The position numbers and the translations under genes were made by a program. The notes below the pieces were generated by a model. The model ran no database searches. It had not been told where the DNA came from and saw only the letters and a program-made list of their open reading frames with translations. Positions 48,173-64,000 of a stretch of 64,000 nucleotides of DNA are shown one piece after another (the stretch's first letter is position 1; every line of letters begins with the position of its first letter). This DNA comes from an uncultured Verrucomicrobia subdivision 3 bacterium (GTDB lineage: Bacteria; Verrucomicrobiota; Verrucomicrobiia; Limisphaerales; UBA11358), in assembly GCA_903922735.1 (NCBI GenBank), contig CAIXUZ010000044.1, positions 1 to 64,000 of the forward strand, read 5' to 3'.

Positions 48173-48536
48173 TCTGGCGGGAGGTTAACAAACGATCCCT
48201 GCCGGGCAAAGGCCCGCCATGGTTATCAACGGGAGGCGAACACCTGGCTGACCATGATCTGGCATTGGCGTCGACCCGTCCTGAAAACGTGTCGATTAAT
48301 TTCGTTTATATTGACATATCCTTCTGACTTGTCGAATGGCTCGACATTCGCATGCATGTGTTCGACCTGATAGCCTTGGACATAGGGCGGCGGTGGTGGA
48401 TTTATTGTGCGGTTACGCACGCGCGGCATCGGATTTATGGCGGATGAGTTTTTGACCGGGCAGATTTTTTAGATTTGCGCTTGAAGCGCGTGGCTTTGCC
48501 GATAAGGATTTGGCGGGGCAGCTAGGCTGTGCCGTC
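48173..48536. other. Divergent intergenic region between dinB and the biosynthetic operon
   Basis: 364 bases. Contains a hairpin (TGTCGA at 48330-48335, TCGACA at 48341-48346) and another GCGCT/AGCGC hairpin at 48477-48489 just ahead of the biosynthetic operon. The sequence ATTGACATATCC (48310-48321) also occurs in the toxin-antitoxin promoter at 1419. No promoter could be assigned with confidence for either direction. Confidence 0.45.
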
Positions 48537-51500
48537 ATGAAAATCACCTTTGTCTATCCGCGGTTTGAGAAGTTTCTGCGCAGCGTGCCCGAGCTGGACG
48601 CGGGCTTGATTGATTATTTCCTGGGGGATTACACCACGCCGCCCTCGCTGGGCATTCCGCTACTGGCGGCGCTCACGCCGGAGGAATTTGAAATCGAGCT
48701 GATTGACGACAACAGCGGGCAACCGGTGGACTACGCCGCGCCCACCGATCTGGTGGCCATCAACTGCTTCACGCCGCAGGCCACCCGCGCGTTTGAAATC
48801 GCCGACCATTTCCGGGCACAAGGCAAAACCGTCATCATGGGCGGAATTTTTCCTTCAACCATGCCGGATGAATGTCTCAAGCACGCCGACTCGGTGAACG
48901 TCGGCGAAGGCGAACCGAGCTGGCCGAAAATACTCGCCGACCTCAGGGCCGGAACCCTCAAGCGCCGCTACGACGGCGGCAGTTCGATGGATGCGGCAAA
49001 AATTCCCGCCGCCAAACGCGAAATTTTTTACCGCAACGACCACTACGACTGGGATGAAGACCTGATTCAGGTGATGCGCGGCTGTCTTTACAACTGCCCG
49101 ATGTGCCCGCTGCCGCAGCAGATGGGCGAACGCATCCGGTTCCGGCCGATTGAAAACGTCGTGGCCGAGATGCGCACGCTCAAGCACGAGAACGTCTATC
49201 TTGCGGATGACATGCTGTTCTTCCCGCACCGGCACGTCCGGGAGTATTCCCAGAAACTTTTCGAGGCGCTGACGCCGCTGGGCAAAAAGTATTTCGTCAA
49301 TTCCACAATGGGGTTGAACATGGAACCGGCCTTTCTCGACGTGGCCGCCCGCGCCGGCGTGAAAAATTTCTATTGCACGATGAACGTCGAGCCGGTGTCC
49401 ATCCGCGCGCTCCAGGGCGGCAAGCGCGAGCGGCAGATGCTGATTGACCTCGTGAAAGCCACGCAGGACCGCGACATCCGCTTCTTCGCATCCGTTGGCA
49501 TGGGCCGCGATTGGGATGATCTCGGTTTTGTGGATCGCGCGCTGGATCTCCTGGCGGCGGCGGACATTCACACGGCGGAATTTTTCATTTTCACGCCGTT
49601 CCCCGGCTCGCCGCACTGGGACCGGATGTTGAGCCAGAAACGGATTTTTGATTTCCAGTGGTCGCGTTACAACGGTTCGCACGTCGTGGCCAAGCCGCAG
49701 AACATGACGGCGGACCAGCTCCGCGAACAGTTCATCCGCATCTGGCGCGAGTTTTTCCAGATGCAGAAAAGCCGTCATGCCGCCTCGCTGGAACCTGCGA
49801 CGTGGCAGAACGGCATCCAAGTGCTCGGCAAGCCGCTTCAGCGGCAGGGCACGCGCGACGAGGCGGCCATCACGGGCATTGGCCTGCTCAGCCCCATCGG
49901 TAATGACGCAGCGACAATTACCGCCGCGCTGCGTTCCGGCCGGCATGGCATCGCGCCGGTCACGCGCTTTGATGCGAGCCATTTTCGCGCAAATCTGTTT
50001 GGCGAAATTAAAAATTTCAATGCCGCCGACTGGTTCCCGCCCGGCGAACTGGCGGAATACGAAGATTTATATATCCGCTATGCCATTGCGGCCGCGCGCC
50101 GCGCCCTGGAAGATGCCGGACTGGCACCAGCCAACGGTGAAATTCGACGGAACATTGCCATAATCCTCGGCACCTGCAACGGCGGGCTGGCTTCGGCCGA
50201 AGCGGAATACGCCTGGAAACACGGGCATAGTTCGCGGCCGTTCGACGAGGTGATGAATTTACAGGCGCAGCATTACGGCTTTGGCAAAGCCCTGGCGAGC
50301 GCGCTGAAAATCGGCGGCGAAACCTGGGTGGTCACCACCGCCTGTTCCTCAACCACCGTGGCGCTCGGCCTTGCGCAGACGCTCATCAATCGCGGCTATT
50401 ACGACATCGTGCTGGTCGGCGGCTCGGACGCGCTCTGTGTGGCGAACGTCTCCGGCTTCGACGCCATCAAGGCGACCTCCACCGCCCGCATGTCGCCGTT
50501 CTCCGTGCCGCCGGGCTTGAACATCGGCGAGGCGGCGTGTTTCTGGGTGGTTGAAGATTTGGAAAAAGCCATTTTACGCCGGGCGCATTGCCGGGGCCGG
50601 CTCATCGGCCATGCGACGACTTCCGACGCCTATCATCCGACCACGCCCGATCCGAGGGGTCTGGGCGTGGCCCGCACGCTGACGAATGCGCTCGCCGATT
50701 CCGGCCTGGCCATCACCGATCTCGGCTGCGTCAATGCCCATGGCAGCGGCACCGAGGCCAACGACCGGGCGGAGACCAAAGGCATCGTCAAATTTCTCGG
50801 CGGCCATAACCTGCCGGTCGTCTCGACAAAATCATTTTTCGGCCACTGCATGGGCGTGACCGGAATTCTTGAAACCACCAGCCAGCTGCTGGCGATGAAT
50901 GAGGATTTTATTCCGCCCACGTTGAACTTCACCGAGCCGCGTCCCGGCTGCACCTTGGATCATGTTCCGAATGTGCCGCGAGAAAAAAAATACGACGCCT
51001 TCATTTCCGCCAATTATGCCTTCGGGGGCAACAACGCGGCGGCGGTGGTTTGCAAATGGGATGCCGCCATACCGCCGCGCCCGAAAAAATCCGAACGGGT
51101 CGTCATCACCGGCGTCGGCGCGGTCACATCGCTGGGTTTGGGCGTGGCGGCGACGGTGGAGCAACTACGGCGCGGCACCGTGGGCATTTCGCCCGTCACG
51201 AATTTTCCGCTGACCGGCCAGACTTCGCGGCTGGCCGGCCAGGTGCCGGATTTCTCCGCCGCGCAAGTGGACCGGCGGCTGGATTTTTCCGTGCTGAACC
51301 CGATCAGCAAATTCGCCGTGGCCGCCGGGCGGCTGGCGCTGGAAAACGCCGGCTTGAAAATCACGCCCGCCAACGGCGACGACATCGGCGTGGTCATGGG
51401 CGTCTGCAACGGCCCGTCCGAGATGGGCCACATGGACAGCGTGTTCACCAGCGATAATTTTGCGGCGAACATTCCGAGCTTTTCGAACATCACCCCCAAT

Positions 51501-52337
51501 TCCACCGCCGGCTGGGTTTCGATGCAGCTTTATCTGAAAGGTGTGAACTCGTCGTTATGTGCCGGGCCTCATGCCGGGCTGCAAGGCCTCGCCTACGCCT
51601 TCGATGCGCTGGCGGAAAAGCGCGCCCGCGCCATCCTTGCCGGCGCGGCCGACGAGGTTTACGGCCAGACGTTTTACAATTACGACGGCATGGACTTCCT
51701 GTACTCCGGCGCGGAGGAAAACGACTACCGTCTCCGGCTGGAAGCCGACAAACGCAAGGTGCTCGGCGAAGGTTCGGCGATGTTCGTCATGGAAACCGCC
51801 GGGTCCGCGAATGCGCGCGGCGCGAAGATCCTGGCGGAACTGGTCAGCTATGGCATGAGCATGGACGCCGAAGGTTTTCTGGCGGCGAACCTTGGCACCG
51901 ATGGCCTGAAGCACGCTGTGCAGCTGGCGCTGACGCGTGCGAGCATCACGCCGGAGCAAATTGGGTTACTCGTCTGGGCACCGCAGGGCAACCGGCAGGA
52001 TGAAAAGGTTCTCAAAGTGGGCGCGGAAATCTTCGGTGGTCGCTTTGCACAACTGCCGCTGGTCACCACGACGTTTAACACCGGTTACATCGAAGCCGCT
52101 TCAATTCTGGTGAGCCTGGCAGCCGCCTTGTCCGCGCTGGCCGACGGCACCGAACTTTGGCCGCAGCGCACCGGTCTGACGGAACTGGATCAGCGGCCGC
52201 TGACCGCGCTTCCGGAATTCATCCTGGCGCTGGCCAGCTCGGATGTTGGCTACAACTTCGCCGTCGTGTTGCGGCGCGGGCTCACCGGCGGGCGCGACGA
52301 TGGTTCAAAAGTGAAGTTTAAGCCAGTTTCGGTTTGA
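48537..52337 (+). CDS. B12-type radical SAM - ketosynthase - chain-length-factor fusion
   Basis: 1266 residues from ATG 48537; an in-frame TTG 27 bases upstream is less likely. Residues 1-150: B12-binding-like Rossmann domain without a DxHxxG motif. About 170-410: radical SAM with Cys183, Cys187, Cys190 (CxxxCxxC) for the 4Fe-4S cluster. About 440-842: ketosynthase with Cys603 (TTACSS), His735 (NAHGSGTE), Lys765 and His770 (FFGH), a full catalytic set. About 852-1250: second ketosynthase fold keeping Cys1008 (SSLCAG) but with APQGN where HGTGT belongs and NTGY where the second His belongs, so probably chain-length-factor-like. First gene of the operon. A single-chain rSAM-KS-CLF is highly unusual; the substrate is unknown. 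Confidence 0.9.
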   Translation: MKITFVYPRFEKFLRSVPELDAGLIDYFLGDYTTPPSLGIPLLAALTPEEFEIELIDDNSGQPVDYAAPTDLVAINCFTPQATRAFEIADHFRAQGKTVIMGGIFPSTMPDECLKHADSVNVGEGEPSWPKILADLRAGTLKRRYDGGSSMDAAKIPAAKREIFYRNDHYDWDEDLIQVMRGCLYNCPMCPLPQQMGERIRFRPIENVVAEMRTLKHENVYLADDMLFFPHRHVREYSQKLFEALTPLGKKYFVNSTMGLNMEPAFLDVAARAGVKNFYCTMNVEPVSIRALQGGKRERQMLIDLVKATQDRDIRFFASVGMGRDWDDLGFVDRALDLLAAADIHTAEFFIFTPFPGSPHWDRMLSQKRIFDFQWSRYNGSHVVAKPQNMTADQLREQFIRIWREFFQMQKSRHAASLEPATWQNGIQVLGKPLQRQGTRDEAAITGIGLLSPIGNDAATITAALRSGRHGIAPVTRFDASHFRANLFGEIKNFNAADWFPPGELAEYEDLYIRYAIAAARRALEDAGLAPANGEIRRNIAIILGTCNGGLASAEAEYAWKHGHSSRPFDEVMNLQAQHYGFGKALASALKIGGETWVVTTACSSTTVALGLAQTLINRGYYDIVLVGGSDALCVANVSGFDAIKATSTARMSPFSVPPGLNIGEAACFWVVEDLEKAILRRAHCRGRLIGHATTSDAYHPTTPDPRGLGVARTLTNALADSGLAITDLGCVNAHGSGTEANDRAETKGIVKFLGGHNLPVVSTKSFFGHCMGVTGILETTSQLLAMNEDFIPPTLNFTEPRPGCTLDHVPNVPREKKYDAFISANYAFGGNNAAAVVCKWDAAIPPRPKKSERVVITGVGAVTSLGLGVAATVEQLRRGTVGISPVTNFPLTGQTSRLAGQVPDFSAAQVDRRLDFSVLNPISKFAVAAGRLALENAGLKITPANGDDIGVVMGVCNGPSEMGHMDSVFTSDNFAANIPSFSNITPNSTAGWVSMQLYLKGVNSSLCAGPHAGLQGLAYAFDALAEKRARAILAGAADEVYGQTFYNYDGMDFLYSGAEENDYRLRLEADKRKVLGEGSAMFVMETAGSANARGAKILAELVSYGMSMDAEGFLAANLGTDGLKHAVQLALTRASITPEQIGLLVWAPQGNRQDEKVLKVGAEIFGGRFAQLPLVTTTFNTGYIEAASILVSLAAALSALADGTELWPQRTGLTELDQRPLTALPEFILALASSDVGYNFAVVLRRGLTGGRDDGSKVKFKPVSV

Positions 52338-52395: not shown

Positions 52396-52692
52396 ATGTC
52401 AGCAAACACTAATCAGACCATCGCGCGTCGTCGGCAGGTAATCGACACCTTCAAGCAGGAGTTGATTCGCCGCCTGAACCTGCCCTATGCCCCGGAAGAT
52501 TTGCACGAAGACGTGTCGCTGCTCGGCTCAGGCCTGGGGCTGGACTCGCTGGATGCGCTGGAAATCGTGCTGTGCGTGGAGACGTGCTTCAAAATAAAAA
52601 TACCGGATGAAAACATTTCCGTGCTGCGTTCCATCAATACCGTCGTGGATTTTGTGATTGAACAGCAGGACAAGAACGGAGGCCAGGCGTGA
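52396..52692 (+). CDS. Acyl carrier protein
   Basis: 98 residues, about 20 longer than a housekeeping ACP because of a basic N-terminal helix. The phosphopantetheine site is Ser51 in GLDSLDALEIV. Helices II and III (ETCFKIKIPDENISVLRSI) are typical. It should carry the growing chain for the fused KS-CLF. Its stop overlaps the next gene's GTG start by four bases. No phosphopantetheinyl transferase is in the window. Confidence 0.92.
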   Translation: MSANTNQTIARRRQVIDTFKQELIRRLNLPYAPEDLHEDVSLLGSGLGLDSLDALEIVLCVETCFKIKIPDENISVLRSINTVVDFVIEQQDKNGGQA

Positions 52693-53795
52693 GAACTTCC
52701 CCGCTCAAAGACCAGCTGGCCGCCGCCGGCGCGGTGTTCCGCGAACGCCACGGCGTTGAGGTGGTTTCCCATTTCGGAAATCTCCAGGCCGAGTGCGGCG
52801 CGGTGCGCGACGCGGCGGCGCTGGCGGATTTTTCCTTCGTCCGCCTCTTCACGCTGCCGGAGACGCCGGGCATTGATTTCCTGGACGCGCTGCTCGCGGG
52901 CAACGTGCCGAAGATCCGCTTTGGCCGCGTGCTGCACACGTTTCTGGCGGACAAAGACGGCAATCTGGCGGCGGACTGTTTGGTGGCGAACAACGACCAG
53001 GAATTCGTCTTCATCTGCGAAAGTATTTTGCCCGACGCCGGATTGGATGCGCTGCTCGCTTCCAATGGCGGTGAATCGCCGGCGAAAGATTTATCCGCCG
53101 ACCATGTTATCCTGAGTCTTGACGGCTTCAAATCGTGGGAAATCGTGAAAAAGATTTTCGGCGCGGATGTCATCGGCCTGCCGTATCTCTCGATTGAGAA
53201 TTATCAGTTCGCGGGCGAGCCGGTGCGGTTCATTCGGGCGGGCAAAACGTCCGAATTCGGCTATCTCCTCATCGCCCCGGTGAAAATTGCGGCGCAATTG
53301 TTCGACACGCTCAAGGCGGAAGTCGAGGCGCGCGGCGGGCGGCTCGCCGGCGCCGATGCTCACGATGCGCTGCGGCTCGAAGGCCGGTTCTTTAACATTT
53401 TCCGCGAAGGCGAACGCGTGCGCGATCCGCTTCCCCTCGGCCTGCAATGGATGATTGATCTGGAGAAGGAAAATTTCAGCGGCGGCACCGCCATCAAGCA
53501 GCGGCGCGCGGCGGGGCTTAAACAAAAAATCATCGGTCTGGCCGCTGAAGCCGGATGCACAGCTCTGAAGACGGGCGCGCCAATATTCCACGAAGGCAAG
53601 CCGGTGGGCGAAGTCGTGACCGACTGCGTTTCCCAGGTGCTAAACCAGCCGCTCGCCCTCGGCTTGCTTCCGCTGGAACTCGCGTTTTCCGGCCTGCAAT
53701 TCCGCGTCGGCTCACCGGACGGCGCGGTGGTGCGTTCGATTTCCATGCCGCCGATCATGCCGAAGAGCCTGACGGTGAAGCTCGACGAAATGTGA
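52689..53795 (+). CDS. GcvT/YgfZ-like folate-binding-fold protein
   Basis: 368 residues, GTG start overlapping the ACP stop (GTGA). The sequence follows the aminomethyltransferase (GcvT) and YgfZ fold: FGNLQAECGAVRDAAALADFS near 30-50, LDALLAGNVPKI near 65, a central GKTSEFGYLLIAP (about 185-197), DALRLEGRFF and GLQWMIDLEKENFSGG (about 255-270), and a C-terminal barrel. The YgfZ KGCxxGQE motif is not seen. YgfZ-type proteins support Fe-S enzymes through tetrahydrofolate, so it could maintain the radical SAM cluster or transfer a one-carbon unit. Neither is shown. Confidence 0.8.
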   Translation: MRTSPLKDQLAAAGAVFRERHGVEVVSHFGNLQAECGAVRDAAALADFSFVRLFTLPETPGIDFLDALLAGNVPKIRFGRVLHTFLADKDGNLAADCLVANNDQEFVFICESILPDAGLDALLASNGGESPAKDLSADHVILSLDGFKSWEIVKKIFGADVIGLPYLSIENYQFAGEPVRFIRAGKTSEFGYLLIAPVKIAAQLFDTLKAEVEARGGRLAGADAHDALRLEGRFFNIFREGERVRDPLPLGLQWMIDLEKENFSGGTAIKQRRAAGLKQKIIGLAAEAGCTALKTGAPIFHEGKPVGEVVTDCVSQVLNQPLALGLLPLELAFSGLQFRVGSPDGAVVRSISMPPIMPKSLTVKLDEM

Positions 53796-53808: not shown

Positions 53809-54255
53809 ATGTTAAAACCATCGCCCCAAGCCAAAGGCCGGCTCATCAAACGCAAGCTGGCCATCCAGCCCGCCTTCCACGAAACGGACATGATGGGCGT
53901 GGTTCACAATTCGAATTATTTTCTGTGGTTCGAGCAAGGCCGGTTGCAAATCATGTTTGAGGTGCTGCCGTTCGACGAGGCGGTCAAGCTCGGCCTGTTC
54001 ATGCCTGTGGTGGAAAATATCTGCCACTACCGCAAGCCGGTGAAGTTCGGGATGCCGCTGCTGCTGTACACCACGCACAATCTCCAGACCGCTTACGAAG
54101 GGCGGCTGGTGTTCAGCCATTATCTGATCCACGAAAAACAGCGAATGGCCATGGCGTTTGGCCAGACCGCGATGACGCTGGTGGATGCCCGGACGAACAA
54201 ACTGGTCAAGGAATGGTCGGCCGAAACCTGGCATCGCTATCAGGCATTGAAATAG
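53809..54255 (+). CDS. 4HBT-type acyl thioesterase (hotdog fold)
   Basis: 148 residues. The opening strand and catalytic loop ETDMMGVVHNSNYFLWFEQGR contains Asp27 in the position of the YbgC/4-hydroxybenzoyl-CoA thioesterase nucleophile, followed by the long hotdog helix. It probably releases the finished acyl chain from ACP or CoA, or edits stalled intermediates. Thirteen bases after the GcvT-like gene. Confidence 0.88.
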   Translation: MLKPSPQAKGRLIKRKLAIQPAFHETDMMGVVHNSNYFLWFEQGRLQIMFEVLPFDEAVKLGLFMPVVENICHYRKPVKFGMPLLLYTTHNLQTAYEGRLVFSHYLIHEKQRMAMAFGQTAMTLVDARTNKLVKEWSAETWHRYQALK

Positions 54256-54355: not shown

Positions 54356-55099
54356 ATGAGCCGAGAATTTGAGGGACAAGTCGTTGTCGTTACCGGTGGA
54401 TCTCGTGGCATTGGCCGCGCCATCGTGGAACGCTTTGCCGCGCAGGGGGCGAAGGTTTATTTCACTTTTCACCAGAATGCCGAGGCCGCCGCGCAGGTTG
54501 CCGCCGCGACGCAGGCGGAGGCCATCCAGTGTTCGCAGAACGATGCCGAGGCCATCAACGCCGCCGTGGAAAAAATCATTGCTGCTTCTGGAAAAATTGA
54601 CGTGCTGGTCAACAATGCCGGCATCACCGCCGACACGTTTCTCATGCTCATGCCGGCGGAGGATTGGAACCGCGTGATTGATACGAACCTCAACGGCGTC
54701 TATCGCTGGTGCAAGGCCGTGACCCGTCCCATGCTCGGCGCCCGGCGCGGCAACATCATCAATCTCGCTTCTATCGCCGGCCTCGTCGGCGTGATGGGCC
54801 AGACGAATTACGCCGCGTCCAAAGGCGCGCTGCTGGCATTCACCCGCGCGCTGGCGGCGGAACTCGGCGCAAAAAACATCCGCGTCAATTCGGTGGTCCC
54901 CGGCTTTATCGAAACGGATATGTCCGCCCGGGTGCCGCGCCAGATCAAGCAGAAGAATCTCGACCACATCGTCCAGAAACGCTTTGGCAAGCCGGAAGAG
55001 ATTGCTTCGGTCGTGACCTTTCTGGCGTCCGAGGGCGCCTCTTACATCATGGGGCAGTCCATCGTGGTGGACGGCGGCCTCACTGCCACGGCGGCTTAA
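54356..55099 (+). CDS. 3-oxoacyl-ACP reductase (FabG-type SDR)
   Basis: 247 residues. NADPH-binding TGGSRGIGR (13-21), NNAG at 86-89, and catalytic Ser139, Tyr152, Lys156 (YAASK), all of the classical SDR set. C-terminal IETDMSARVP and GQSIVVDGG match FabG enzymes. It provides the keto reduction step after KS condensation. A 100-base gap separates it from the thioesterase gene. Confidence 0.93.
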   Translation: MSREFEGQVVVVTGGSRGIGRAIVERFAAQGAKVYFTFHQNAEAAAQVAAATQAEAIQCSQNDAEAINAAVEKIIAASGKIDVLVNNAGITADTFLMLMPAEDWNRVIDTNLNGVYRWCKAVTRPMLGARRGNIINLASIAGLVGVMGQTNYAASKGALLAFTRALAAELGAKNIRVNSVVPGFIETDMSARVPRQIKQKNLDHIVQKRFGKPEEIASVVTFLASEGASYIMGQSIVVDGGLTATAA

Positions 55100-55237: not shown

Positions 55238-56167
55238 ATGAACGTCTTTCTTTTCCCTGGCCAAGGCTCGCAGGAAATCGGCATGGCGTCGGACTTGTTC
55301 AAAGCTGATGCAGCTTTCTGCGAACTGGTTTGCCGCGCCAGCGAACGCGCCGGCTCCGATCTGGAAAAAATCTGCCGGCGCGGACCGGAACGCGAACTGA
55401 CGCGCACCAAGAATCTCCAACCGCTCCTCGTTTGCGTTTCGCTGGGCTATCTACGGCAGTTAACGGACAAGGGAATCCGTCCGGATAAAGTCCTCGGCCA
55501 TTCGCTGGGCGAAATATCCGCGCTCGCGGCGGCGGGCATCGTCAGTTTTGAAACCGCCGTGGACATCGCCGCCAAACGCGGCGAACTGATGGATGCCGCC
55601 GCCGCCCGCGGGCAAGGCGGGATGACCGCCGTGATTTCAAGCGAACGCGAAGCCGTCCTCCAATTGCTCGCGCAAAAATTTGCCGGCGGCCAGCTGGTTC
55701 TGGCCAATGACAACACGCCCAACCAGCTTGTTCTTTCCGGCGAAGTCACCGCGTTGGAACAGTTCGCCGCACTCGTCACGGCGGAGAAGCTTGGCCAGTG
55801 TCGCCGCCTGGCGGTCGCCGGGCCGTGGCACAGTCCGCTGATGGAGTCGGCGCAGCGGGAGTTTTCAAGCTGGCTCGACGCGGTTGAGTTTCACGCGCCG
55901 AAAGTGCCGGTGATTTTCAACGTCACCGCTGAAGCGGAAACCGATCCGGCGAAAATCCGTCAGCTCATCGCGCGTAATCTGGTGGCGCCGGTCCGCTGGC
56001 GGACGGCGATGGATTCCTTGCGGGGCATGGAAAAACTGACCTTGTTCGAGGTCGGGCCGGGGCGCGTGTTGTCCGGTCTGGCGCGGGCCAGCGGCTTTGG
56101 CGACGAGGTGAAAATATTCAACATCAATAATCTGCGCGGCGTTGAAATGGCCGCGCCGCTTGTCTAA
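55238..56167 (+). CDS. Malonyl-CoA:ACP transacylase (FabD-type)
   Basis: 309 residues. N-terminal FLFPGQGSQEIGM, nucleophile Ser89 in LGHSLGEISALAAAG, Arg114 for malonate recognition and catalytic His198 in AGPWHSPLM. All are standard for FabD-type enzymes using malonyl-CoA. It supplies extender units to the pathway ACP. Confidence 0.93.
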   Translation: MNVFLFPGQGSQEIGMASDLFKADAAFCELVCRASERAGSDLEKICRRGPERELTRTKNLQPLLVCVSLGYLRQLTDKGIRPDKVLGHSLGEISALAAAGIVSFETAVDIAAKRGELMDAAAARGQGGMTAVISSEREAVLQLLAQKFAGGQLVLANDNTPNQLVLSGEVTALEQFAALVTAEKLGQCRRLAVAGPWHSPLMESAQREFSSWLDAVEFHAPKVPVIFNVTAEAETDPAKIRQLIARNLVAPVRWRTAMDSLRGMEKLTLFEVGPGRVLSGLARASGFGDEVKIFNINNLRGVEMAAPLV

Positions 56168-56176
56168 CATCCCGCC

Positions 56177-57937
56177 GTGCCATCTGAACCCACCCAATCC
56201 AACCGTGTCACTGGCAGCGTCGGCGGCGAGGATGTTTTCGCCGGCCGCCGGCTCATAGTCCGCATGGCGGACAACTGCGACCGCGAGCGGATTTATCAGA
56301 TCCGCCATGAGGTTTTCGCCGCCGAGCTGGGCCAGTATGCCACCAACTCCGTCGGCCGGCTGACCGATGCGCTGGATGCGTTCAACCATTATATCGTGGT
56401 TGCCGACGGCGAGCGCATTGTGGGTTTTGTCGCCATCACGCCGCCGGGCAGCCCGAGTTTTTCCATTGATAAATATTTCCAGCGCGCCGAACTGCCTTTT
56501 CCCGTGGATGACCGGCTCTACGAGGTGCGGCTGCTGACCGTGCCGCAGGAATCGCGGCGGAGCCTGCTCGCGCTGGCGCTGATGTATGCGGCCTTCCGCT
56601 GGGTGGAGGCGCGCGGCGGCACGCGTATCATGGCGATTGGCCGGCGCGAAATCCGCTCCATGCATGTTCGCGTTGGATTGAAGCCGACCGGGCAGGACGT
56701 GAAATGTGGCGCCGTAACTTACGGTCTCCTGCAGGCGACCATGCAGGATGTGCAGGATTCGCTCGGCGGCATCCGCAAAATGCTGGACCGCATCGAGGCC
56801 GAAATGGCCTGGGAAATTGGCGTGGCCTATCGCACGCCTTCGCCTTGCTACCACGGCGGAAAATTCTTCGAGGCGGTCGGTGACGAATTTCAAAATCTCG
56901 AACAGCTCGACACCGTCATCGCCGCCGATGTTTTGGACGCGTGGTTTCCGCCGTCGCCCAAAGCCGTGGCCGCGCTTCAAAAACATCTCGGGCAGCTGCT
57001 CCGCACCTCGCCGCCGACCGGCTGCGAAGGACTGGTGCGGACGATTGCGCGCATCCGGGGTGTTGGCGTGGATAATATTTTGCCCGGCGGCGGCTCATCG
57101 GATTTGATTTTCCTCGCGCTGCGCCACTGGCTCACGCCGGCTTCCCGCGTGCTAATTCTCGACCCGACTTATGGCGAATACGCGCACGTTCTCGAACGCG
57201 TCATTCGTTGTCAGGTGGACCGGTTGCCGTTGACCCGCGCCGCCCAATATCGTGTGGATTTGCACCAGTTGGAGCCGGCCTTGCAGGGCGGTTATGATCT
57301 GGTGGTGCTGGTGAACCCGAACAGCCCCGCCGGCCAGCACATCCCGCGGGTTGAACTGGAAGCCGTGCTTAAAAAAGTTCCCGCTGTCACGCGCGTTTGG
57401 GTGGACGAGACGTATATTGAATACGCCGGAGCCGGGGAATCGCTGGAAAAATTCGCCGCGCGCTCGGAAAATGTCATCGTCTGCAAATCCATGTCCAAGG
57501 TTTACGCGTTGAGCGGCGCACGGGTGGCGTATTTGTGCGCCGGAGCGCAGCAGCTTGAATCGCTGCGCCCGCTGAATCCGCCGTGGGCCGTGAGTTTGCC
57601 CGCGCAAGTTGCCGCCGTGAATGCGCTCGCCGATACGGATTACTACGCCGCGAAATATGCCAAGACCCACAACCTGCGGGAGGAACTGGCCGCCGAACTC
57701 CGCCGGCTGAACTGGCAGATTGTTTCCGGCGTGACGAATTTCCTGCTCTGCCACCTGCCGGACGCTGGGCCGGACGCCGAGACGCTGATTGTCCGCTGCC
57801 GGGAGCGCGGTCTTTTCCTGCGCAACGCCGCTTCGATGGGCACGAACCTCGGTGAACGCGCCGTCCGCATCGCCGTGAAGGACGCCGAGACCAACCGGCG
57901 GATGGTGAAAATTATTTCCGAAGCAGTTGCCGCCTGA
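56177..57937 (+). CDS. GNAT (acyl-amino-acid/autoinducer-synthase-like) - PLP aminotransferase fusion
   Basis: 586 residues, GTG start nine bases after fabD. Residues about 25-190: GNAT-like domain with YQIRHEVFAAELGQY, LDAFNHYIVVADGERIVGFVAI and RLLTVPQESRRS, recalling LuxI-type and FeeM-type N-acyl synthases that take acyl chains from ACP. Residues about 225-585: fold-type I PLP enzyme of the HisC/CobD type with GGSSDL (305-310), NPNSPAG (380-386), Asp410 in VWVDETYIEY, the Schiff-base Lys441 (SMSK) and Arg449. It may make an amino compound and acylate it, or introduce an amine. Last gene of the plus operon. Confidence 0.85.
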   Translation: MPSEPTQSNRVTGSVGGEDVFAGRRLIVRMADNCDRERIYQIRHEVFAAELGQYATNSVGRLTDALDAFNHYIVVADGERIVGFVAITPPGSPSFSIDKYFQRAELPFPVDDRLYEVRLLTVPQESRRSLLALALMYAAFRWVEARGGTRIMAIGRREIRSMHVRVGLKPTGQDVKCGAVTYGLLQATMQDVQDSLGGIRKMLDRIEAEMAWEIGVAYRTPSPCYHGGKFFEAVGDEFQNLEQLDTVIAADVLDAWFPPSPKAVAALQKHLGQLLRTSPPTGCEGLVRTIARIRGVGVDNILPGGGSSDLIFLALRHWLTPASRVLILDPTYGEYAHVLERVIRCQVDRLPLTRAAQYRVDLHQLEPALQGGYDLVVLVNPNSPAGQHIPRVELEAVLKKVPAVTRVWVDETYIEYAGAGESLEKFAARSENVIVCKSMSKVYALSGARVAYLCAGAQQLESLRPLNPPWAVSLPAQVAAVNALADTDYYAAKYAKTHNLREELAAELRRLNWQIVSGVTNFLLCHLPDAGPDAETLIVRCRERGLFLRNAASMGTNLGERAVRIAVKDAETNRRMVKIISEAVAA

Positions 57938-57948
57938 AGTTTGTCCCC

Positions 57949-58410
57949 TTACCCCTCGACCATCGCCAGCGTCAGCGAACCGCTAGCGATCAAATTTCTT
58001 CCCGCTGTCGTCTCCACATTGAAGCGGAACAGCGCGCCGAAATTCCGGTCCATCGTCGCGCGCAGCACCAGTGTGTCACCCGGCACGGCGGGATGCGTGA
58101 ACTTGATGTTTGTCACGGCCAGAAAGAACGCTCTCGGCTTTTCCGGCGGCGCGGCGGCGGCCGCCATTTCGCTCAAGCCGATGAGCAAGCCGCTCGTCTG
58201 CGCCAGCGCCTCGGCGATGAGCACGCCGGGCATGATGGGGCGGCCCGGAAAGTGCCCGCCGAAGTGCGGTTCTTCCGGGCGTAGCAAACGCTCGGCTACG
58301 ATAGATTTTTGCGGCTCCAGCTTGATCACGCGGTCCACAAACAGGAATGGCGCGCGGTGCGGCAGCAACGGCAGCAGGTCGGCGAGTTCAAACAAGGCTT
58401 TATCGTTCAT
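57949..58410 (-). CDS. 3-hydroxyacyl-ACP dehydratase (FabZ-type)
   Basis: 153 residues from ATG 58410, which overlaps the acyltransferase stop by four bases. Hotdog fold with the FabZ active site: His53 in FGGHFPGRPIMPG and Glu67 in LIAEALAQTSG. LLPHRAPFLFVDRV at the start is diagnostic. It dehydrates 3-hydroxyacyl-ACP to enoyl-ACP. With no enoyl reductase nearby, double bonds may be kept. Ends 11 bases from the convergent plus-strand operon. Confidence 0.92.
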   Translation of the reverse strand: MNDKALFELADLLPLLPHRAPFLFVDRVIKLEPQKSIVAERLLRPEEPHFGGHFPGRPIMPGVLIAEALAQTSGLLIGLSEMAAAAAPPEKPRAFFLAVTNIKFTHPAVPGDTLVLRATMDRNFGALFRFNVETTAGRNLIASGSLTLAMVEG

Positions 58411-59219
58411 GATTTTTGCGGGTTGATTTCCCAAGCGGTTCCGGCGTCGAGCGATTTCAATTCCTGGGCGATGCGCCAATGCACACGGTCGCACAACGCG
58501 CGGGCGTTGTCTCCGGGACGCGACGGTTCCGGGTCGAGAAAGCGGATGCAGTAAAAATTCTGGCGGCGCGGAAAAACACTGCCGGGAACTTTTGCCATGA
58601 ACGGCTCGGTGGAATGGATGACCACCGGCAGCACCGGCACGCCGGCCGCGAGCGCCAGGTCGAAGGCCAGCCGGTTGAACGGCTGCAACCGGCCGCTCCG
58701 GGCGCGGGAGCCTTCGGGAAACACCAGCAGGTTTTTCCCGTCGGCCAGAATCTGGCGGCAGCGCGCCGACGCGGTCGTGACCGACTCCAACGAATCGCGG
58801 TTCACGCTGACGAGGTCAAAATAGCGGACGAGCAGGTGATACATCGGCTGCCGGGCATGAGCGGACTTGGTCAATGCGCCGGTGCGCGGCGACAGGCCGA
58901 GCAGAAAGATCGAGTCCATGAAACCTCGGTGATTCGATACCAAAACGACCGGTCGAGTCGGCTCGATTTTATCGCGCCCGGAAATTTCAATGATCCGATA
59001 GACGCGGAACAGCGGCAGCCAGACGCGTGTGAAAAAACCCAGGAAGCCGGTTAAAACCCTTTGAAAAAATCGCTGCCGCGCCGCTGGCCACGGCGTCAGC
59101 AACAGGAACAGCGGCACGCCCAGCGCCACAAAAATCAGCTTTGAGAGGAAGTAGCTCGCGTAGCCGAGGCCCGTCAGGAATACGACGGCGGGGAAAAACC
59201 TGTTCGGGCCGCGTTTCAT
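58407..59219 (-). CDS. PlsC-like lysophospholipid acyltransferase
   Basis: 270 residues from ATG 59219 (the ATGA overlap with the upstream stop is preferred over ATG 59234). N-terminal membrane helices at about 10-45. The PlsC H(x4)D motif is His97 and Asp102 in VSNHRGFMD, followed by the EGSRARSG motif (about 163-170). It would move an acyl chain onto a glycerolipid or similar alcohol at the inner membrane. Acyltransferases of this type are regular members of aryl-polyene loci. Confidence 0.88.
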   Translation of the reverse strand: MKRGPNRFFPAVVFLTGLGYASYFLSKLIFVALGVPLFLLLTPWPAARQRFFQRVLTGFLGFFTRVWLPLFRVYRIIEISGRDKIEPTRPVVLVSNHRGFMDSIFLLGLSPRTGALTKSAHARQPMYHLLVRYFDLVSVNRDSLESVTTASARCRQILADGKNLLVFPEGSRARSGRLQPFNRLAFDLALAAGVPVLPVVIHSTEPFMAKVPGSVFPRRQNFYCIRFLDPEPSRPGDNARALCDRVHWRIAQELKSLDAGTAWEINPQKS

Positions 59220-60889
59220 TTTTGCTCGAAGCATTGTTTCAGCAGCATTTCGATTTTATGCCGTTCGCCGCCGAGCGCCGGCTTGCCGTCCAGCGCCCGC
59301 CGGCAGGCGGCGGCAGCTTCGGTGCGTTTGCCTTGCCGGAATAAAACCTCCGCCAGCAGCCACGCGTTTTGATAATAGCCTGGATTGTTCGTTTCGGCTT
59401 GTAGCGCGAAGGTTTTGGCGGCCTCGAGTTCACCTTTTTTCAGCGCAGAATAGCAGTCGCTCAAATTGGTTTTGCTCGCGAGGTAATGCGCATATCCGCC
59501 ATCCGTCAAAATGGGATCGGCGGGCAGTGCCTGTTCCGGCAACAGTTTTTCCGGCGCGTTCAGGTCGAACGCCACAAATTTACCAAGCTGGTGCGGCGGC
59601 GTGGCGGCCCAGAAAACTCCGGCCGTCAAATCCATCACCACCGAGTGCGTGGCGATGAGCGGATTCAGCGAGCCACGATGGCCGGCGCCGGCGGATTTTC
59701 CGCCGGGCAGTTGCCGGTCGCGCAGCAACGCCGCGCAAGCCGCCGCGCCGAGGTGGTTGGTGGCGAGCAGTTCAGTCATCCGTTCAAAACGCGAAAGGGA
59801 GGTATCGGCACGTTTGTAGGTTTCGTTGATGGCGGTGTCCTTCAGCTCCGCGGTAAGATAATGATTGGCACAGACGAGCGAATTCGCCTTCGGCTCCGGC
59901 TCGCGCACGGCGGTTTGCTCCGGTGTCTTCTCGATGACGATGAATTTTCCATCCGCGCGGCTGCCGACCAGAAACATCGCCGAAACAAACACCTGGCGAT
60001 GGCGGATGATTTCCGTGGCCTCAGCCAGATTGTGCGCGTGCTCCAAAACTTCGCGCGCCACGAGGCACGTCGGCGTCGCGGCGTCGGAAGGCAAATCGGA
60101 TGGCGCGCCATTGACCGTGATGGAAATGCCCTCGCGGTTCATGCCTGAAACGCAGCCGGTCATGCCCGCCCATGCCAGCGAGATGAAGGGAATGCCGTTC
60201 TTTGGCTCGCAGATGATCAAGATTCGTTCCACTTCAAAAACCGGGTCCGCTTCCCAGTCAAAATTACGCCCACAGAGCAGGTGACTTTCCGTCGTGGCGC
60301 TGCCCCATGCGCCGAACGCCGTGCAGCCGCGCCGGATGAGCGGGCTATTCATCAGCATATATGAGATGTCCTGCGCACCGTGATAATTCAAAATGCGGTT
60401 GTAATACGGCCCCATTTCCGGATGCGGGTCGGGGCTGCCACGAGAAATCCCCAGCATCTCCAACTGCAACTCCGGCGTGATGTGCTGCGTCATGTGCCGG
60501 TTCTTGTAGGTCACCAAAAACTCCAGCGTGAACTGAATCCAGCGGTACGGTGCGACGTGGTGCAGCAGGGTCACAACGGAATCTTCCTGGCGTTTGATTT
60601 GTTTCTGCGTGAGCACGCCATTGGCGTAGCCCATTTCAAACGGCGTGCCGGTGAGGTAAAGCACAGGCAAGCCTTCGCGCTGGCCGAACCAGTTCTTTCC
60701 CAGATAGACACGGTCGCCGCGCGGTTCCGGCTGGAGCGCAAGAATGGCCGGGGTCTCCGTCAGCACCGGTTCCCTGGCCACCCAGCGATACATGAGCGAG
60801 AGCATCACGCCCCACAATATCAGCAGTGCCACAGCCCCGCCGCCGGTGAGCCAGAGCAGCCGTTTAAGCCATTTGCGACGGCGGTTCAT
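59216..60889 (-). CDS. C45-family Ntn acyltransferase/hydrolase with C-terminal TPR
   Basis: 557 residues. Membrane anchor at about 12-33. The acyl-transferase core resembles the C45 acyl-CoA:6-APA acyltransferase family: GTPFEMGYANG near 81-91, an autoprocessing candidate Cys189 in RRGCTAFGAWG, and LLCGRNFDWE near 204-213. After about residue 470 are two TPR-like helical pairs (ALKKGELEAAKTFALQAE, LAEVLFRQGKRTEAAAACRR). It may form or cleave an amide bond to the acyl product, which would pair well with the GNAT-aminotransferase of the facing operon. Confidence 0.82.
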   Translation of the reverse strand: MNRRRKWLKRLLWLTGGGAVALLILWGVMLSLMYRWVAREPVLTETPAILALQPEPRGDRVYLGKNWFGQREGLPVLYLTGTPFEMGYANGVLTQKQIKRQEDSVVTLLHHVAPYRWIQFTLEFLVTYKNRHMTQHITPELQLEMLGISRGSPDPHPEMGPYYNRILNYHGAQDISYMLMNSPLIRRGCTAFGAWGSATTESHLLCGRNFDWEADPVFEVERILIICEPKNGIPFISLAWAGMTGCVSGMNREGISITVNGAPSDLPSDAATPTCLVAREVLEHAHNLAEATEIIRHRQVFVSAMFLVGSRADGKFIVIEKTPEQTAVREPEPKANSLVCANHYLTAELKDTAINETYKRADTSLSRFERMTELLATNHLGAAACAALLRDRQLPGGKSAGAGHRGSLNPLIATHSVVMDLTAGVFWAATPPHQLGKFVAFDLNAPEKLLPEQALPADPILTDGGYAHYLASKTNLSDCYSALKKGELEAAKTFALQAETNNPGYYQNAWLLAEVLFRQGKRTEAAAACRRALDGKPALGGERHKIEMLLKQCFEQK

Positions 60890-63057: not shown

Positions 63058-64000
63058 ATTCCTTTCGTTCCCGTCGGCGAGAGCGTGAGCAGCACCACGG
63101 CTTTGCAGGCGCGCTCCGCCGCAATTTCTCCGCGCACCAAACCTATCGCGGTAAGAAAGCCAAACGCCGACGCCGAATGATGTTCTCCGCAGACCTGCTG
63201 GTAGGTGTGGAGTAAAACCTCGTGTCCGGCGCGCCGGGAAAACTCCGTCGCCAGCGCACGGTAATATTCAGTCTGCGCGGGAGCACCATTCGCGCCGGTC
63301 AGCAGCAAATCCACTTCGCCCGATGCCATGCCGTCGCGCTCCAGTGTTTCCAGAATCCAGTCAGCTTCAGCCACGGGGTCAGGTTTTTCACTTCGACCAA
63401 TGCGAATGGCAGAGACAAACGCCAGTGGCGACGCCGCAGTTTCCGCGCGGCCGAGCGTAAACAGCGCGCAGCCCTCGCCCGGCAGCGACCGTGGCAAAGT
63501 TTTATTCCACCAGCCCCAGCGGATTCCGGCGGCGAGGTGGTATTGGTTCAACTCGTCCGCCGCACCGACGAGTGCGAGTTCCGCGCGGCCGGATGCCAGT
63601 TCGTTGGCCCCCTGCCAGAGCGCGGTTTCAAAGGCGATTTCGCGCTGCACCGGCGTTGAGTTCAGGCCGGAAAGCTTGAGTTCAATCGCCACCTGCGATG
63701 CCAGCGAGTTGTGGACGGAACTGGTGAACAGAGCCGGGCGCGGGGCGCGCTCATCTTTCAAAATCAGATTTTCCACAAATGCCGCCGTGTCCGTCAGCGA
63801 GCCGAGTCCGGTGCCAATCACCGCGCAGATTCCTTCCGGTGTGGTGCTGGCGAGGAGTTCCGCACCCAGGGCTTTCTTGGCGGCGACCAGCGTCATTTGC
63901 TGGATGCGGCTCAACTTGCGGCGCTTGGCCGGCTCGATGAATTGCTCCGCGCCGAATTCGCCGCAGGCATGAACTTGCGCTTGTGCCGTCGGGGAAATAG
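63039..64000 (-). CDS. Ketosynthase-like protein without active-site Cys (5' end beyond window)
   Basis: Partial: the frame is open to the window end, and the first visible codons (PAKRRKLSRIQQMTLVAA) look like the interior of a ketosynthase N-terminal domain, so more lies upstream. The Ketoacyl-synt_2-like segment SSVHNSLASQVAIELKLSG is followed by TPVQREIAFETALWQ at the place where ketosynthases have TACSS. The catalytic Cys is therefore missing. GAADELN and GEGCALFTLG follow as in KS folds. It is probably a chain-length-factor or regulatory subunit like ApeC-type proteins. First visible gene of the minus operon. Confidence 0.8.
   Translation of the reverse strand, partial: ISPTAQAQVHACGEFGAEQFIEPAKRRKLSRIQQMTLVAAKKALGAELLASTTPEGICAVIGTGLGSLTDTAAFVENLILKDERAPRPALFTSSVHNSLASQVAIELKLSGLNSTPVQREIAFETALWQGANELASGRAELALVGAADELNQYHLAAGIRWGWWNKTLPRSLPGEGCALFTLGRAETAASPLAFVSAIRIGRSEKPDPVAEADWILETLERDGMASGEVDLLLTGANGAPAQTEYYRALATEFSRRAGHEVLLHTYQQVCGEHHSASAFGFLTAIGLVRGEIAAERACKAVVLLTLSPTGTKGMCCIRV

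Follow-up and report, generated by a model that had tools for sequence, protein, structure and literature searches.

What does a radical S-adenosylmethionine (SAM) domain do when it is built into the enzyme that condenses acyl chains? This question is raised by a locus of an uncultured Verrucomicrobia subdivision 3 bacterium, which lies in a window (the whole stretch of DNA analysed, 64,000 nucleotides) comprising bases 1-64000 of a 105,255-base contig from a 4.48 Mb assembly. A single uninterrupted frame at 48537-52337 on the forward strand encodes a protein of 1266 amino acids in which a radical SAM region is followed by a ketosynthase (KS) and then by a second KS fold that resembles a chain-length factor (CLF). 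This radical SAM-KS-CLF fusion is a real, conserved family. The protein is read here as a single-chain condensing enzyme with built-in radical SAM tailoring, most likely C-methylation of the carrier-bound chain, and we give this reading about an even chance; the building of a chain on a carrier is its safe part.

Domain organization of the fusion protein

The mechanically called open reading frame begins at a TTG at 48510, upstream of an ATG at 48537. The residue aligned with this ATG was methionine, valine or leucine in 28 of the 29 relatives with an intact N-terminus (phenylalanine in L079), and 48537 is therefore the likely start. Residues 1 to ~430 (48537..49826) form a B12-binding fold and radical SAM region, which was recognized by Pfam (B12-binding, residues 36-127, 32.5 bits against a cut-off of 32.1; Radical_SAM, residues 177-322, 30.0 bits against 29.5), by the structure model and by Foldseek, and which carries a CxxxCxxC motif at residues 183-190 (49083-49106). 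A linker at residues 405-445 (49749..49871), conserved in the alignment of fused rows, leads into a FabF-like KS at residues ~443-842 (49863..51062) with C603, H735, K765 and H770 in place. This KS was identified by Pfam (ketoacyl-synt, 444-678; Ketoacyl-synt_C, 688-798), NCBIfam, matches in the PDB and alignment. The second, CLF-like KS fold occupies residues ~853-1245 (51093..52271) and was recognized by NCBIfam (850-959), PDB sequence matches (853-1169), alignment and the model. Pfam detected no additional catalytic domain C-terminal to it.

The fusion is a conserved family found in several phyla

GTDB species genomes were scanned for exact matches to two motifs, both taken from the radical SAM part only. 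The scan returned 131 matching stretches, 30 of which code for relatives of the fusion. In all 30 loci, each on a separate contig, one frame carries on from the radical SAM part into a KS. At least part of the second KS can be seen in 28 (not in L091 or L094), and its end is reached in 26. Contig ends truncate five loci, L083 at its start and L085, L090, L091 and L094 at their ends. An earlier note on this DNA, made from the sequence alone, had described one 1266-residue protein with this domain order and had named a sequencing or assembly error as what would undo that description. The single frame and the recurrence of the junction bear the description out. An assembly or frameshift artefact is ruled out by the 30 separate loci with a joined radical SAM-KS frame, 26 of them through the end of the second KS, and we consider its probability negligible.

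The hosts of the fusion belong to Verrucomicrobiota/Kiritimatiellota/Lentisphaerota, Fibrobacterota and Omnitrophota, and include Verrucomicrobia subdivision 3, Opitutales, Kiritimatiellia, Lentisphaerae, Chitinivibrionales, Chitinispirillaceae and a Fibrobacter sp.; the closest fused relatives that bear a name come from metagenome bins of Verrucomicrobiota. As the scan required exact motif matches, further phyla may also hold the fusion. A survey with a profile of the radical SAM part, in which the fused form was called by an open frame of more than 1100 amino acids, detected it in 2 of the 387 genomes sampled from the window's phylum, in 17 of the 167 from the Fibrobacterota group and in 1 of the 285 from the Omnitrophota group. 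Profile scores in the window's phylum fall from 605 to 292 bits at the next-best match, and Fibrobacterota hold an intermediate class of ~396-454 bits with frames of fewer than 1000 amino acids. No relative of the fusion was found in the viral contigs searched. In a tree of 59 radical SAM rows (an intended L103 row fell below the 300-amino-acid limit and was dropped), the 30 fused radical SAM parts formed one clade, with an ultrafast bootstrap of 100 and an SH-aLRT of 99. Phyla were interspersed inside this clade, which indicates that the fusion gene has likely moved between phyla.

Active-site residues are retained in the first KS and lost from the second

Conservation was counted over 31 fused rows, namely the window protein and the 30 loci, using the rows that cover each position. 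The CxxxCxxC motif was kept in 31 of 31 rows, and Pfam B12-binding and Radical_SAM both matched all 30 rows of alignment A3, which holds the window protein and 29 loci; L083, whose N-terminus is missing, was left out. In the first KS, C603 was present in 30 of 30 covering rows and H735, K765 and H770 each in 29 of 29. These counts sustain the earlier note's description of a B12-type radical SAM module with this motif and of a KS with a complete Cys-His-His set at 603, 735 and 770.

Alignment A4 is made up of the window protein, 26 of the 30 loci and two KS-CLF proteins without a radical SAM domain; the cut loci L085, L090, L091 and L094 were left out. Among the fused rows, position 1011 of the second KS, which aligns with the catalytic Cys, is Pro, His, Ala or Ser in 28 of 28 covering rows, and a non-conserved Cys at 1008 occurs in two of the 28 (the window protein and L088). 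The position of the first His is Ala in 26 of 27 rows and Ser in one, and that of the second is Tyr in 21, Phe, Lys or Thr in four and His in two (L077 and L083). Loss of both His, as claimed in the earlier note, thus holds for the window protein, in which the Cys and the Lys are gone as well.

Structure models and profile matches

The KS-CLF half was modelled with a predicted local distance difference test (pLDDT) score of 93.1 and a predicted template-modelling (pTM) score of 0.94. Of the PDB structures, 6riw, the KS-CLF didomain of PfaC, matches it best, with a template-modelling (TM) score of 0.77 (normalized to query length; 930 columns). The match spans both halves and, as far as a model can indicate, fits the heterodimer-like KS/CLF arrangement for which the earlier note had suggested a structural check. 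A profile search of the PDB with the KS-CLF half was topped by 9s5h chain B, and chain C of the same entry matched too. Since the model matches a solved PfaC didomain, a single-chain KS-CLF was already known. The earlier statement that KS and CLF normally form separate subunits is correct for classical type II polyketide synthases (PKSs), but does not extend to single-chain PfaC or to a fused KS-KS protein encoded on the same contig.

The radical SAM half was modelled with a pLDDT of 87.9, and Foldseek matched it to AprD4, TsrM, MgmA, CysS, OxsB and MiaB. The top fold match is AprD4 (TM 0.78, 18% identity). When the profile of this half was searched against the PDB, the C-methylase MgmA came first (9ccb, 1.2e-6) and AprD4 second (6.7e-4). 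NCBIfam matches included TIGR04013, the best, and TIGR04014, all far below their cut-offs. The fold matches also include CysS (14-15% identity), which has been solved with pantetheinylated substrates and which we take to be a B12 radical SAM methyltransferase. In this class of enzymes, methylation is the reaction seen most often.

AprD4 tops the fold matches, which makes dehydration or desaturation a serious competitor to methylation: the radical SAM domain would make or move double bonds or strip a hydroxyl, leaving the growing chain unsaturated by an anaerobic route. The second place of AprD4 in the profile search agrees with this, as does the anaerobic synthesis of polyunsaturated fatty acids (PUFAs) that Rattray et al., in the available text of their paper, proposed for Kuenenia and Desulfotalea clusters (PMC2649909). 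AprD4 acts on a sugar, however, its identity to the model is low, and the best sequence match is a methylase; we regard this alternative as possible but unlikely.

The fusion usually lies near an acyl carrier protein gene

The gene directly downstream, at 52396..52692 on the forward strand, encodes an acyl carrier protein (ACP) of 98 amino acids (PF00550) that is conserved near the fusion; the pathway ACP presupposed in the earlier note thus has its gene next to the fusion. It is followed on the same strand by a GcvT-like protein of the aminomethyltransferase fold (52689..53795; PF01571, alignment and PDB matches), whose gene overlaps that of the ACP by 4 bases, a 4HBT thioesterase-like protein (53809..54255; Pfam) and a FabG-like ketoreductase (KR) of the short-chain dehydrogenase type (54356..55099; NCBIfam and Pfam). 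The FabG-like protein scored 248.4 bits against NF009466 (cut-off 222) and 279.6 against TIGR01830, below its cut-off of 297.75, and its best Pfam model, PF13561, is named for enoyl-ACP reductase. Further along the forward strand are a FabD-like malonyl transferase (AT; 55238..56167; TIGR00128, 265.5 bits, cut-off 260.9) and an accessory protein in which a FeeM/GNAT-like region is fused to a CobD/HisC-like pyridoxal phosphate (PLP) enzyme (56177..57937; Pfam and NCBIfam); among the loci tallied below, this GNAT-PLP protein recurred only in L068 (74%) and L086 (73%). A FabA/FabZ-like dehydratase (DH; 57949..58494; PF07977) and an acyltransferase (58407..59234; PF01553) lie on the reverse strand. 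Promoter- and terminator-like sites occurred at chance level (3 and 17 found against 2.9 and 15.1 expected).

The neighbour tally drew on the 19 of 30 loci in which the sequence continues for at least 4.5 kb downstream of the fusion, and it took in genes of both strands on both sides. The ACP, the GcvT-like protein and FabG were found in 16 of these 19 loci; they are divergent from the fusion in L086, and ~8 kb away on the opposite strand in L092. The AT and an adjoining further KS-KS protein each occurred in 10 loci, FabA/FabZ, MMPL and 4HBT proteins in eight each, the acyltransferase in five, the GNAT-PLP protein in two and LolA in one. In 11 of 11 copies of the further KS-KS protein that were aligned, the first KS keeps the Cys, both His and the Lys. 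A 360-amino-acid protein with an FMN_red-like N-terminus (L074:19331-20413) was present in seven of the 30 fusion loci, the others being L069, L080, L081, L084, L087 and L093. Single-chain KS-CLF relatives without the radical SAM domain were found in L054 (50%) and L055 (45%), also with an ACP, a GcvT-like protein and FabG on the locus. In the genomes of these two loci (G378 and G400), the radical SAM profile matched nothing at 1e-60, with up to four candidates scored per genome.

D96 of the GcvT-like protein is invariant in 17 of 17 rows and aligns gap-free to residue 96 of PDB chain 1woo, presumably the Thermotoga maritima enzyme, in which we assume this Asp to matter for folate. PDB matches of the GcvT-like protein comprised aminomethyltransferases, dimethylglycine dehydrogenases and oxidases, a GcvT-like protein and a trimethylamine N-oxide demethylase. 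A YgfZ/IBA57 role is not favoured, because of this set of matches and because the gene is kept in L054 and L055. A folate-type GcvT-like enzyme thus recurs with KS-CLF both with the radical SAM domain (16 of 19 loci) and without it (two loci).

An aryl-polyene-like block on the same contig

The reverse strand from 59216 to the end of the window at 64000 carries an aryl-polyene/flexirubin-like block identified from domain matches, with AAT-like, LolA and polysaccharide deacetylase genes and the start of a fused KS-KS gene. The cluster continues along the contig to ~90100, and its content includes an aromatic ammonia-lyase, a FlxY-like ligase (467.4 bits, below the cut-off of 520), an MMPL protein joined to a lipid-A-type acyltransferase, LolA and the fused KS-KS protein. 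Within the same contig, ~27 kb from the fusion, a block at 75861-80860 (L050 and L097) encodes an unfused FabF-like KS, a B12-binding radical SAM protein and a member of TIGR04072 (418.9 bits, cut-off 360). The gene adjoining this FabF-like KS had no Pfam or NCBIfam match at the thresholds used. In the genome with the best stand-alone radical SAM match of the 387 sampled (G206), that gene has a FlxY-like ligase beside it in the region L066:8094-12703, together with a lipid-A-type acyltransferase and another protein of the radical SAM/SPASM-like kind.

An aromatic lyase and a FlxY-like ligase on the contig of the fusion are compatible with a radical SAM domain that acts elsewhere, on an aryl starter, a head group or a finished aryl-polyene-like lipid, so that the fusion would serve co-expression. 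Relatives of the lyase near the fusion in three of 30 loci (L080, L084 and L087) and of the ligase in one (L083) agree with this, as do the ligase beside the G206 radical SAM gene and the existence of KS-CLF relatives without the domain. Against it, 26 of the 30 loci, some of them short, have neither lyase nor ligase, and the one-piece protein with its conserved linker has been kept across phyla. We consider action on such another substrate distinctly unlikely.

Unfused relatives of the radical SAM part

The rows nearest to the fused clade in the radical SAM tree are two stand-alone clades from Fibrobacterota, one of eight rows (100/100) and one of 12 (100/99). Support is weak for their union (84/46) and stands at 86/85 for the node at which they meet the fused clade; several outgroup rows are long-branched, which leaves the branching order outside the fused clade unsure. 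In the clade of eight, an intact KS lies nearby in all eight cases, FabG in five, FabA/FabZ in four and a partner KS fold without the Cys and His in six. Neighbouring KS genes of the stand-alone loci were aligned as nine first-KS and seven partner genes. The seven partners, six from the clade of eight and one from L125, have Phe in place of the Cys, Ser or Gly in place of the first His and Glu in place of the second, and keep the Lys. Such operons, in which an unfused radical SAM protein accompanies a KS and a Cys/His-less KS, argue that the radical SAM, KS and CLF activities share one pathway.

Three loci of the clade of 12 were checked with Pfam. The radical SAM gene has an FAD oxidoreductase of the Amino_oxidase family next to it in L122 and in L124. 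In L125 (6482-9280), an FAD domain of this family is fused ahead of the related radical SAM domain, as checked by Pfam for this locus; frames of 921-949 amino acids in L126-L128 are candidates for the same fusion. The Amino_oxidase family includes phytoene desaturases. A relative of this FAD oxidoreductase was found in none of the 30 fusion loci.

Relationship to ladderane-like chemistry

The gene sets of these stand-alone relatives recall anammox and Desulfotalea clusters, in which, according to the available text of Rattray et al., SAM radical enzymes and phytoene-desaturase-like enzymes accompany FabF paralogues with altered active sites (PMC2649909), but the FAD oxidoreductase is absent from the fusion loci. 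The fused radical SAM part scored 51.6 bits against TIGR04072 ("rSAM_ladder_B12"), whose cut-off is 360, and is thereby ruled out as a ladderane-type TIGR04072 equivalog. Separate TIGR04072 members score above the cut-off in 20 of 31 fusion genomes; among the other genomes sampled from the window's phylum the figure is 36 of 385 (the Fisher tests of this contrast ignore kinship and differing sampling). Among the 13 fusion genomes from Verrucomicrobiota, Kiritimatiellota or Lentisphaerota, 11 have such a member. On the fusion's own locus a TIGR04072-like radical SAM gene was found in two of 30 cases, both distant (24-26%). The co-occurrence within genomes suggests a tie to ladderane-like chemistry.

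Co-occurrence of this kind is one ground for an alternative in which the radical SAM domain forms rings or carbon-carbon bonds, ladderane-like or other, in a polyene supplied by the KS-CLF. The clustering of some stand-alone relatives with a KS, a Cys/His-less KS and FAD oxidoreductases also speaks for it, as does the composition of the anammox candidate clusters of Rattray et al., with their divergent FabF. The score of the fused domain, the 11 of 31 fusion genomes without TIGR04072 above cut-off, and the scarcity of FAD oxidoreductase and TIGR04072-like genes at the fusion loci do not fit. Ladderanes are moreover described, in the available text of PMC9902471, as "strictly associated" with anammox Planctomycetota, and the accessible account of Kuenenia candidate operons in E. 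coli reports no new fatty acids, the detected proteins being mostly insoluble (PMC4790861). Ring formation is accordingly rated unlikely.

Proposed function

Carrier-bound chain building is supported by the company of the ACP and KR genes, the intact KS and the KS-CLF fold. In the proposed mechanism, the KS and CLF halves would pair within one chain, as in PfaC, and extend an acyl chain on the neighbouring ACP, the presumed partner. Malonyl would be loaded by the FabD-like protein, with reduction by FabG and dehydration by the FabA/FabZ-like protein. No separate enoyl reductase was found among the 20 window proteins scanned, so the chain on the ACP is probably polyunsaturated. The radical SAM domain, which probably uses cobalamin, would then functionalize the chain at an unactivated carbon, with C-methylation as the likeliest reaction. 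A lipid is the probable product, which the thioesterase may release or the acyltransferase may receive. Action of the radical SAM domain on the chain of the KS-CLF is suggested by the fusion itself, by the unfused operons and by the pantetheinyl precedent of CysS; a carrier-bound substrate and methylation are the putative elements of this step. The earlier note placed the radical chemistry on ACP-bound chains during elongation; the action may fall during or after elongation, and it may be methylation, cyclization, desaturation or dehydration.

Several observations weigh against C-methylation of a carrier-bound chain. The enzyme at the head of the fold list, AprD4, is a radical diol dehydratase and not a methylase, and it is not known to use cobalamin; the B12-binding score of the window protein is barely above the Pfam cut-off. 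The ACP, the GcvT-like protein and FabG are all absent in three of the 19 tallied loci (L067, L072 and L083). The proteins of L054 and L055, with the profile results for G378 and G400, further indicate that a KS-CLF module can work without a radical SAM domain.

Comparison with known systems

The earlier note knew of no described enzyme with this domain order, and a three-part radical SAM-KS-CLF protein was likewise not found in the literature searched, which left out most subscription papers. The fusion of the radical SAM domain ahead of KS-CLF is thus what appears to be new; a single-chain KS-CLF is known from 6riw, and B12-binding radical SAM genes beside fatty acid synthase (FAS) or PKS genes are known from the available portions of PMC2649909 and PMC3908369. 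The PfaC KS-CLF, reported to perform the last chain elongation in PUFA synthesis, resembles the fusion in that KS and CLF share one chain and in being the best fold match across both halves, but the accessible text mentions no radical SAM domain for PfaC (PMC12895367). In PUFA synthases the KS-CLF sits inside the Pfa megasynthase, whereas here AT, ACP, KR and DH are separate small proteins. The type II FAS clusters of anammox bacteria and Desulfotalea likewise contain a B12-binding radical SAM protein (Kuste2803), FabF and a divergent KS (Kuste2805), but as separate genes, as far as the available text goes (PMC2649909). Kuenenia was likened by description, and the fused radical SAM part fails the TIGR04072 cut-off.

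CysS shares the radical SAM fold and pantetheinylated substrates with the proposed activity, but is a separate enzyme. MgmA and TIGR04013 are the best PDB sequence and NCBIfam matches, respectively, but MgmA acts on a protein glutamine, and the TIGR04014 and TIGR04013 scores lie far under the curated cut-offs. SwfC of sponge symbionts is a B12-binding radical SAM protein encoded beside PKS/FAS genes, including the PKS SwfA, but in the available text it is a separate protein and the PKS is of type I (PMC3908369).

That the gene for a dedicated ACP usually lies close to the fusion suggests that a radical step is an integral part of the synthesis of a lipid in these bacteria. Since the radical SAM, condensing enzyme and CLF activities are in one expressible protein with an adjoining ACP gene, the role of radical SAM enzymes in fatty-acid-like clusters can be tested with one operon. 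Ladderane-like clusters whose products are unknown are expressed in Fibrobacterota, Verrucomicrobiota, Omnitrophota and others of an anoxic basin, according to the available text of PMC9902471, and the fusion is found in the same phyla, an overlap at the level of phylum. More speculatively, and in our view rather improbably, the radical SAM domain may rewrite the chain between elongation rounds, by a ring or a branch, to yield polyene lipids of a new class, cyclic or branched, in a pathway widespread in Verrucomicrobiota, Fibrobacterota and Omnitrophota. If true, such rewriting between rounds would be an answer for some of the orphan "ladderane-like" clusters outside the anammox bacteria.

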